Below, one piece after another: positions 10,816 to 30,291 of a stretch of 35,153 nucleotides of DNA. A program made the position numbers and the translations under genes. The notes under the pieces are model-generated. The model was not told where the DNA came from and ran no database searches. It was given only the letters and a program-made list of their open reading frames with translations. Position 1 is the stretch's first letter. The number at the start of each line of letters is the position of its first letter. The stretch covers positions 1 through 35,153 of the forward strand of contig JACIWQ010000024.1 of the NCBI GenBank assembly GCA_014360895.1, given 5' to 3'. The DNA comes from Thermoflexales bacterium (GTDB lineage: Bacteria; Chloroflexota; Anaerolineae; B4-G1; DUEL01).

Positions 10816-10923
10816 ATTAGACTTTATCGGAAATAGCGCCAGATGGCGCAGTGCATATCTTATTTATAGAGAAATCTGCGCTCGTCCGCGTTCATCCGCG
10901 TCCTATTTCCGATGAAGTTCATT
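10816..10923. mobile_element. MITE-like element, copy 1
   Basis: This 108-bp element lies between the two DUF2207 genes. Its ends, TAGACTTTATCGGAAATAG and CTATTTCCGATGAAGTT, are inverted repeats, and an internal palindrome GCGCCAGATGGCGC sits near the left end. Two other copies occur at 21629 and 26074. There is no coding capacity. Its right end supplies an in-frame ATG at 10912 upstream of the second DUF2207 gene. Confidence 0.8.
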
Positions 10924-25590: not shown

Positions 25591-25876
25591 AATAGGGTTG
25601 GGCGCCCTCTCGGCGATAGCTCATCTGCGTCCCTCCGCGCTGATCTGCGCCCTTCAGAAAAACCGCAAATTTCCATAGAGCGGGATTGACAGGAACTATG
25701 CCAAAAAGCCCTGATGGCCCTCCTCCCCCGGGTCCGGGAAGCGCTGGGAGGCGGCGATATGTCCTGGTGGGACCTCTGTCCCGCCTGTCGGCGCAGGGTT
25801 CTGGCCGATAACGTTGTCCAGGCCGCTGGCCCACGAATTGCGGACTGATTGCGGCCTGGCGAATTTAAGGTAGAAT
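25591..25876. other. Gene-free stretch with a diverged CATCTGCGTCC-type repeat
   Basis: No gene was recognised. 25620-25652 (beginning CTCATCTGCGTCCCTCCGCG) resembles the interior of the MITE-like elements but lacks their inverted ends. At 25849-25876, TTGCGG and TAGAAT spaced by 16 bp form a promoter-like pair just before the hairpin at 25877. A short frame from 25699 is proline-rich and looks like chance. Confidence 0.4.
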
Positions 25877-25922
25877 GGGGTTTGCCGTAGCGGCCCTCGG
25901 TCGTTATGGCAAACCCCTTTTT
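25877..25922 (+). terminator. Long hairpin with T-run
   Basis: Arms GGGGTTTGCC (25877-25886) and GGCAAACCCC (25908-25917) pair perfectly and continue inwards, with G-U pairs, to about 19 bp around a CTC loop; TTTTT follows. It is a strong terminator for the plus strand, about 290 bases after the cyclase stop. A promoter-like pair precedes it directly, so it could also mark a very short RNA. Confidence 0.75.
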
Positions 25923-25956
25923 CATTCAACGGCATTTTGCAACTTAACCATCTTAC

Positions 25957-26056
25957 GCCCGACCGTGAACGGTCGGGCTCAGATGCAAAGCCCCACGGGC
26001 GATCAGAAAGCCCCGAAGAAGCTTCGCAGGGTGAGCCCGATGCTTTAGCGTCGGGC
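25957..26056 (+). ncRNA. Candidate structured RNA locus with three hairpins
   Basis: Three consecutive hairpins lie within 100 bases: GCCCGACCG/CGGTCGGGC with TGAA loop (25957-25978), CGAAG/CTTCG with AAG loop (26013-26025) and GCCCGATGC/GCGTCGGGC with TTTA loop (26035-26056). First and last have the same 9-4-9 design. The layout and the TTTA-loop end hairpin resemble the right ends of IS200/IS605-type elements, where TnpB guide RNA is encoded, but no tnpB is left. The strand is not certain. A MITE-like element begins 17 bases downstream. Confidence 0.35.
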
Positions 26057-26073
26057 GAAACGCAGCGCCCATT

Positions 26074-26181
26074 ATTAGACTTTATCGGAGATAGCGCCAG
26101 GTGGCGCAGCACGTATCTTCTTTATAAGAAAATCTGCGCTCGTCCGCGTTCATCCGCGTCCTATTTCCGATGAAGTTTATT
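26074..26181. mobile_element. MITE-like element, copy 3
   Basis: A 108-bp copy with ends TAGACTTTATCGGAGATAG and CTATTTCCGATGAAGTTTA, internal palindrome GCGCCAGGTGGCGC and the shared interior AATCTGCGCTCGTCCGCG. It lies 63 bases before the likely start of the M24 peptidase and supplies an upstream in-frame ATG at 26170. TA dinucleotides at both outer ends hint at TA target duplication, as in Tc1/IS630-type transposition. Confidence 0.82.
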
Positions 26182-26244
26182 GCCGGAACAATTTGCCCAG
26201 TTGCATTCTGCCGTTGGACTTCCACCGTGATTCCTGGAGGAGAT

Positions 26245-27417
26245 TTGAACAACCGGCTGAACGGGTTGCGAAGAGGTCTGGCTGACGCGGGGTTGGATGC
26301 CGCTGTGCTGGTCCATCCCCGGGACGTCCTCTACTACGCCGGGACGGCCCGTCCGGCCACGCTGGTGGTGGGGCCGCAGGAGGCTGTCCTCCTGGTGCGC
26401 CGGGGGCTGGATCTGGCCCACCGGGAGGCCACCCTGGAGCGGGTGGAGCCGGGGGGCGGCTGGGATACCGTCGCGGCAGTGCTGGCGGCCCAGGGGCTGA
26501 CCGGCGGCACCCTGGGGGCCGACCTGGATGTGATGCCCGCCCAACTCTACCGGCGGATGCGGGATGCCCTGCCCGGCTGGGAGATAGAGGACGTGAGCCC
26601 TCTGGTCCTGGCCCAGCGCATGGTCAAAGACCCGGAGGAAATCCGGGCCACGGAGCGGGCGGCGGCCGTCGCCGATGCGGGCCACGCGGCCCTGCCCCCT
26701 ATCCTCCGTCCCGGCATGAGCGAACTGGCCCTGGCGGCAGAGGTGGAGGCCGCGCTGCGGCGAGCCGGCCACGAGGGCTACCAACCCTTGCGCTACCCCG
26801 GCGCGCGCGGCGGCGGCGTCCTCCTGATGAGCGGCGAAAACCTGACCGTGCGCGGCGGCCACGGCCTGGTCATCACCGGCGCCGGCCTGAGCCCGGGCAC
26901 CCCCTACGGCCCCTCCCGTCGGGAAGTCCGCCCGGGCGACCTGGTGGTGCTGGACATCGGCGCCACCTACGACGGCTACACCGCCGACGAATCCCGGACC
27001 TATGTGGTGGGGCGGGCAACGGCGGCCCAGGAGGCCCTCTTTGAGGCCGCGCTGGCGGTGGAGGAGGCCGTTTTCTCCGCCCTTCGCCCCGGCGTCCCTG
27101 CTGCCGAGGTCTACGCGGCGGCGGAGGCGGTAGCGGCCCGGGGCGTGCCCCCTCACTTCCCGCCAGGACGCCTCTCCCTGCCGGGCTTCGTCGGCCACGG
27201 CCTGGGCCTGGAAATAGATGAACCCCCCGTCCTCTGGCCGCGCGAAGAGACCCCCATCGCAGCCGGGATGGTCCTGGCGGTGGAGGTGGAACTGAATGCC
27301 CCCGCCGACGGTCTGATGGCCAAAGTGGAGGATACCCTCGTCGTGGAGACGGAGGGTCCCCGTCTTCTCACCCACGCGCCGCGCCGACTGCAGGCTTGCC
27401 TTCTGAGTGAACCGTAG
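26245..27417 (+). CDS. M24 family metallopeptidase, Xaa-Pro aminopeptidase-like
   Basis: The 390-residue enzyme has an N-terminal creatinase-like domain (1-130) and a C-terminal pita-bread peptidase domain. The five metal ligands are visible: Asp in VVLDIGATYDGY, Asp in TADESRTYVV, His in GFVGHGLGLE, Glu in VLAVEVEL and Glu in KVEDTLVV. It should remove N-terminal residues before proline or cleave related dipeptides in the cytoplasm. TTG 26245 after GGAGGAG is the likely start, though spacing is short; the frame is open back to ATG 26170 in the MITE, which would add 25 unrelated residues. Precedes metG by 122 bases that hold 21-bp repeats. Confidence 0.9.
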   Translation: MNNRLNGLRRGLADAGLDAAVLVHPRDVLYYAGTARPATLVVGPQEAVLLVRRGLDLAHREATLERVEPGGGWDTVAAVLAAQGLTGGTLGADLDVMPAQLYRRMRDALPGWEIEDVSPLVLAQRMVKDPEEIRATERAAAVADAGHAALPPILRPGMSELALAAEVEAALRRAGHEGYQPLRYPGARGGGVLLMSGENLTVRGGHGLVITGAGLSPGTPYGPSRREVRPGDLVVLDIGATYDGYTADESRTYVVGRATAAQEALFEAALAVEEAVFSALRPGVPAAEVYAAAEAVAARGVPPHFPPGRLSLPGFVGHGLGLEIDEPPVLWPREETPIAAGMVLAVEVELNAPADGLMAKVEDTLVVETEGPRLLTHAPRRLQACLLSEP

Positions 27418-30213: not shown

Positions 30214-30291
30214 CGGGGCGTAGCGCAGTCCGGTTAGCGCGCAGCGTTCGGGACGCTGAGGTCCGGGGTCCAAATCCCCGCGCCCCGACCA
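30214..30291 (+). tRNA. tRNA-Pro (anticodon CGG), encoded CCA
   Basis: The 78-base gene folds as a full cloverleaf: acceptor CGGGGCG/CGCCCCG, D stem GCGC/GCGC, anticodon stem CAGCG/CGCTG with loop TTCGGGA (CGG, reading CCG), T stem CGGGG/CCCCG, discriminator A and encoded CCA. The T loop reads TCCAAAT, so the position normally U55 (pseudouridine) is C, which is rare. Stems are otherwise intact. Confidence 0.95.

Follow-up and report, generated by a model that had tools for sequence, protein, structure and literature searches.

The hairpin block in the stretch shown is one worn copy of a dispersed REPIN-like repeat of ∼100 bp, present in many copies in its own genome and in relatives. We consider it likely that this copy is a non-autonomous element that was moved as single-stranded DNA by a Y1 transposase carrying the motif Y-x3-Q-x2-HH (hereafter HH motif). 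The original prediction had proposed a relic or a free-standing non-coding RNA, and was to fall if there were neither copies elsewhere nor transcription. Copies are plentiful, so that it does not fall on the first count. The block is not an orphan RNA; the prediction was right in that it is a non-autonomous piece without a gene of its own. Throughout, "the window" denotes the whole 35,153-nt stretch of Thermoflexales DNA that was analysed, and positions refer to it.

The hairpin block and its dispersed family

The three hairpins described from the sequence are real and lie where they had been placed: two 9-4-9 hairpins that both begin with GCCCGA, A (GCCCGACCG-TGAA-CGGTCGGGC) and B (GCCCGATGC-TTTA-GCGTCGGGC), enclose a 5-3-5 hairpin at 26,014–26,026 (CGAAG-AAG-CTTCG; features in Table 1). 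Hairpins A and B also match each other as inverted repeats over 29 nt (76%). The region 25,940–26,070 folds more stably than its shuffled versions on both strands, with z = −4.39 on the plus strand (equalled by 0 of 200 shuffles) and z = −3.15 on the minus strand (1 of 200).

A 201-base query around the block yielded 39 matching rows in the own genome, 24 of which match the hairpin block itself and correspond to 22 places, the window included. By BLASTN, matches were present in 15 of 60 genomes, the own genome counted. We aligned 25 full-length copies from the own genome and its relatives (alignment A1) and built the covariance model R1 on them, which gave matches in 34 of the 60 genomes, again counting the own one; R1 matches per genome include both strands and derive from 62 candidates scored per genome, and hence are not copy numbers. 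Across the window, R1 matched a single place, with 103.2 bits on the plus strand, this copy being one of the 25 training sequences; the minus strand of the same copy scored 71.8 bits with this near-palindromic model, of whose training set the copy is part.

In the element, one hairpin unit, composed of a TNA foot, a 9-bp stem and a TTYA loop, occurs as an inverted pair. The stems of the terminal hairpins are of GCCCG type, the feet point inward, and two small inner hairpins lie between them. In A1 the foot is TNA in 24 of 25 copies at hairpin A and in 21 of 25 at hairpin B, with GTA once, and the loop reads TTTA or TTCA in 20 and 16 of 25 copies, respectively. The 5-3-5 hairpin of the window copy is not typical of the family: most copies carry AGCCCC-GAA-GGGGCT at that place. 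In the window copy GG is replaced by AA within this second inner hairpin, which the 5-3-5 hairpin overlaps.

Table 1. Features of the element and of the adjoining repeats in the window
Feature	Positions	Strand	Basis
Decayed left outer end TTGCAACTTAAC, like the terminal inverted repeat of other own-genome copies	25937..25948	+	By eye, degenerate
REPIN-like element, belonging to a dispersed family	25951..26062	+	R1 score; copies in own genome and relatives
Terminal hairpin A, 9-4-9; on the minus strand 5' foot TGA, loop TTCA	25957..25978	+	
Family's first inner hairpin (AGCCC-nnn-GGGCT); the window copy has lost its outermost pair	25989..26001	+	Alignment A1
Family's second inner hairpin (AGCCCC-GAA-GGGGCT), disrupted in the window copy by GG to AA	26009..26023	+	Alignment A1
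Terminal hairpin B, 9-4-9; 5' foot TGA, loop TTTA	26035..26056	+	
Different dispersed repeat, 3' of hairpin B and 5' of the right outer end	26073..26179 (approximate)	+	Query rows; by eye
Right outer end TTGCCGGAACAATTTGCCCAGTTGCA, like a terminal inverted repeat	26180..26205	+	21 own-genome places with ≤3 mismatches, window counted

When the local-hairpin structure was scored on A1, 95.6% of cells were paired, and 46 cells showed changes on both sides of a pair, compared with 12.9 ± 2.5 in shuffled alignments (0 of 500 reaching the observed value) and at most 5 when the partners were slid. Over the 25 copies, five of nine pairs in hairpin A and four of nine in hairpin B changed on both sides. 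Compensatory changes were restricted to these two terminal hairpins; the first and second inner hairpins had 92.8% and 92.0% of their cells paired, respectively, with no both-side change in the 25 copies. RNAalifold favours an alternative fold in which the two inner arms pair with each other over a long range, and the covariation, scored on the local-hairpin structure only, does not separate the two.

We also compared the window with Rfam. At gathering scores there was no match on the block, and the sole match in the window was a tRNA gene (30,214–30,288); at E ≤ 1 the block region gave one sub-threshold microRNA match, which lies on a neighbouring hairpin. The block was accordingly rejected as a known RNA.

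Probable insertion site and neighbouring repeats

The flanks of the site (25,845–25,935 and 26,221–26,400) are kept in a genome of the same genus (G001, locus L188), which lacks everything between them and carries ∼90 bp of other sequence instead; an exact empty site was not found, the G001 site consisting of both flanks plus this other sequence. No R1 match at E < 1e-3 was obtained at any of eight loci that contain a homologue of the downstream gene (the best had E 0.003); of these loci, L188 and L190 extend just some 210–240 bp upstream of the gene. Because the flanks are kept without the block in L188 and R1 is absent at the eight homologous loci, the block is probably a lineage-specific insertion. 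Reading by eye gave no clear conserved target site or target duplication.

These data also bear on the reading that the block is a functional RNA or a protein-binding hairpin array (a 3' UTR stabiliser, an attenuator or a nucleoid site) selected in place and non-mobile. Its intergenic position, the strong fold on both strands and the compensatory changes would all suit such a role, but its place is not conserved at the eight homologous loci, the members of its family cluster at one type of transposase gene (see below), and the near-palindromic form of the element explains why both strands score. We therefore regard a selected, immobile array as highly unlikely.

The right outer end is common to other own-genome elements and a second dispersed repeat lies alongside the block, so that the site is a repeat mosaic. 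This second repeat reads TTAGACTTTATCGG...CCGATGAAGTTTA, with the inner core CTCGTCCGCGTTCATCCGCGTCC, and is the sole part of the query matched by 15 of the 39 own-genome rows, including one at window positions 10,816–10,842. Upstream of the block, positions 25,874–25,925 form a strong hairpin followed by a T run, which is kept in the same-genus genome and is probably the terminator of the upstream gene.

An element with terminal inverted repeats, with ends like TTGCCGGAAYAATTTKYCCAGTTGCA, occurs in the own genome (e.g. at L045, L046, L028, L022, L033, and L117). Could the block be cargo of a MITE that has ends resembling TTGCARNTTGACAAATTATTCCGGCAAT and is mobilised by an ordinary transposase? 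In the window copy the right end is good and the left one decayed, with no clear duplication by eye, and among own-genome copies, where such ends were looked for, that on contig C24 has both ends and several others have one. However, an element on contig C200 has both ends and no hairpins, and 8 of 28 ends of the terminal-inverted-repeat element abut half of a hairpin, as though this element inserts into the loop of the REPIN-like hairpin. In other genomes, moreover, the hairpin family clusters at Y1 genes. Weighing these points, we find a MITE origin of the block improbable and favour a REPIN-like element dispersed by a Y1 enzyme.

Association with HH-motif Y1 transposase genes

Y1 transposase genes (PF01797) were present in 35 of the 60 genomes. 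At 34 Y1 loci, R1 matches (E < 1e-3) accompanied 9 of the 16 genes with the HH motif and none of the 18 others (Fisher p = 2.2e-4), and the difference persisted when only R1-bearing genomes were included (7 of 12 vs 0 of 10, p = 0.005). We then assembled a second set by comparing ten HH-type proteins with the genome collection and keeping the top 80 of 475 loci, selected on the protein alone; five of these are shared with the first set, and the motif is in frame at 77 of the 80. R1 matches were found at 46 of the 80 loci, comprising 27 of 35 in Chloroflexota, 16 of 42 in Cyanobacteria and 3 of 3 in Desulfamplus.

Around these 80 loci, R1 density fell steeply with distance from the gene, from 1.32 per kb within 300 bp to 0.27 at 300–600 bp, 0.07 at 600–1000 bp and 0.03 at 1000–1500 bp, and to zero beyond. 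A test independent of the model gave the same picture: at 40 of 62 loci a repeat is common to the 600 bp on either side of the gene, compared with 1 of 62 for control flanks 1200–1800 bp away (discordant loci 39:0). All of these association tests ignore kinship among the loci.

The association is partial. HH-type loci without an R1 match number 34 of 80 in the second set and 7 of 16 in the first, and presence of the element across the 60 genomes is unrelated to presence of any Y1 gene (21 of 34 R1-bearing genomes vs 14 of 26 others, p = 0.60). No Y1 gene was found in 13 of the 34 R1-bearing genomes, which we ascribe to loss or incomplete assembly. Genome-wide searches of the genomes of 17 chosen loci gave R1 matches in 13, with at most 30 per genome; among the seven cyanobacterial genomes searched in this way there were few or none, and four had none at E ≤ 1e-3. 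Sister copies of the repeat are frequent neighbours of Y1 genes, whose product, a small single-strand DNA transposase, probably spreads them, or once did.

Other repeats were seen at Y1 genes as well. An HH-type Y1 gene of Chlorogloeopsis is flanked by a repeat that, with each strand scored separately, matches 58, 50, and 31 times in three cyanobacterial genomes, which belong to three genera (L250, L234, and L229). Four loci with canonical-type Y1 genes of the same class (Y-x3-NP; L110, L111, L112, and L116) likewise have repeats common to both flanks.

Two Y1 genes are present in the own genome. Upstream of the one on contig C21, whose likely start codon is at 203, a 31-bp fragment of the 3' end of the element (C21:118–148) lies 54 bp away and corresponds to window positions 26,046–26,076, that is, the 3' arm of hairpin B and the bases following it; this locus carries the fragment only, without an R1 match. 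The encoded protein retains intact motifs (DHIH, WQ and YIQNQPLHH) and is similar to transposases of known structure, among them the ISHp608 enzyme. It passes the NCBIfam IS200 transposase model (73 bits, cut-off 55) and fails that of REP_Tyr_transpos (NF047646; 20.8 bits, cut-off 80). The second gene (C50:6699–7500), also of HH type, is flanked by a different hairpin repeat (GCGTCAACGAAGGTTGACGC...CCGATTTCCAATCGG) with 25 matches in the own genome; apart from the query itself, four lie on C50.

The kinship of these Y1 genes with IS200 TnpA, together with the TTTA loop, is what remains in favour of the idea that a TnpB- or IscB-bearing element left the block behind, as an orphan right end of IS200/IS605 or as a guide-RNA scaffold. 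Against it, the TnpB-type domain PF07282 and PF14239 (RRXRR, which we take to be the N-terminal domain of IscB) were not detected in any of the 13 genomes sampled from the genus and family, compared with 9 and 4 of the 60 genomes overall, respectively; of the 34 R1-bearing genomes, three had PF07282 and two PF14239. The genomes richest in PF07282 (G032 with 57 matches and G056 with 16) had no R1 match. The covariance model matched (E < 1e-3) at 0 of 30 TnpB loci, a weak control in which 21 loci come from two genomes and 3 from R1-bearing ones. A TnpB or IscB origin is thus not supported, and we judge an orphan end or scaffold to be extremely improbable. Of the original link to IS200/IS605, the tie to the Y1/HuH superfamily that includes the IS200/IS605 TnpA survives; TnpB, IscB and the guide RNA find no support.

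Proposed mobility and relation to known systems

Movement of the element by a Y1 enzyme is proposed here from the biochemistry of IS608 and of REPs. When the region becomes single-stranded, for instance on the lagging-strand template, the hairpins would fold and be bound by the Y1 enzyme, which the bases at the 5' foot would guide to a nearby cut site; cutting and rejoining would then let copies land in new intergenic places. In IS608 and REPs, according to the account in PMC8266576, the cut site is chosen under guidance from the bases lying 5' of the hairpin, and selection of CT has been proposed for the AG of the tag; the present element, whose foot has a conserved A|G, may fit this proposal. 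The window copy itself probably dates from an old insertion event between two genes and would be functionless save for possible effects on the mRNA of its neighbours.

The element shares features with several known systems. IS200/IS605 elements have a Y1 HuH transposase, subterminal hairpins and guide bases at the hairpin foot, and the present system resembles them in all of these respects. They are likewise covered by PMC8266576. Unlike in IS200/IS605, no unit of left end, gene and right end was seen, the gene is low copy and the repeat high copy, and TnpB is absent from the sampled genomes of the genus and family. TIRYTs and TIRtrons, as outlined by Di Nocera et al. 2013 (PMC3733652), are Y1 genes with flanking inverted repeats that are sometimes dispersed too, an arrangement similar to ours; their repeats are mostly described there as unrelated to REPs, whereas the present repeat is an inverted hairpin pair. 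The same article lists REPtrons and describes GTAG repeats in Cyanobacteria and in one Chloroflexi species, so that part of the Y1–repeat association may have been seen before.

The transposase corresponds most directly to TnpA-Y1 subclass 1.2, for which the account of Quentin et al. 2018 (PMC6006769) gives the signature Y-x3-Q-x2-HH with DH[IV]H and WQ. The own-genome gene on C21 shows this signature, as read from its motifs rather than with the authors' profile, and the short protein, low copy number and occurrence in Cyanobacteria agree as well. In the same account, subclass 1.2 is found mostly in Cyanobacteria and Bacteroidetes and is described as having lost its IS character and lacking a REP partner, whereas many of the HH-type genes studied here, from Chloroflexota, Cyanobacteria and Desulfamplus, have flanking repeats, both in the R1 matches and in the model-free comparison of near flanks. 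Among literature titles and abstracts, we found no link of subclass 1.2 or of Chloroflexota IS200-like genes to REPs. On balance, we lean towards the view that subclass 1.2 enzymes disperse a large, mostly undescribed REPIN-like superfamily of their own across the Chloroflexota, Cyanobacteria and Desulfobacterota; REP systems would then have a second origin, derived from IS200, alongside the class-2 RAYTs. If so, subclass 1.2 transposases would gain a partner and hence a testable job, and REP-type genome repeats would appear to have arisen more than once from IS200-like enzymes. The family would also explain a class of Chloroflexota hairpin repeats that might otherwise be taken for orphan RNAs or guide-RNA scaffolds.

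The closest parallel to the repeat itself is REPIN/BIME with RAYT (TnpA-REP). In both, a single hairpin unit with a conserved foot occurs as inverted pairs, which are scattered in multiple intergenic copies (here in the own genome, in relatives and in three cyanobacterial genomes), some of them flanking a low-copy Y1 gene; the TTTA loop is shared with the Marinomonas REP as presented in PMC8266576. Two inner hairpins per pair and inward-facing TNA|G feet set the present element apart from canonical REPs, whose 5' foot tag GT[AG]G is not that of the A1 copies; a GTA|G foot occurs in 7 of 25 Chloroflexota right-hand hairpins adjoining Y1 genes. The transposase also departs from TnpA-REP (class 2, Y-x3-NP), in that its motif is YIQNQPLHH and its scores fall below the REP_Tyr_transpos cut-off and above that for IS200 transposases. 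Because it differs from canonical REPs in both the GT[AG]G tag and the transposase class, the element is a REP-like variant rather than a member of that family.
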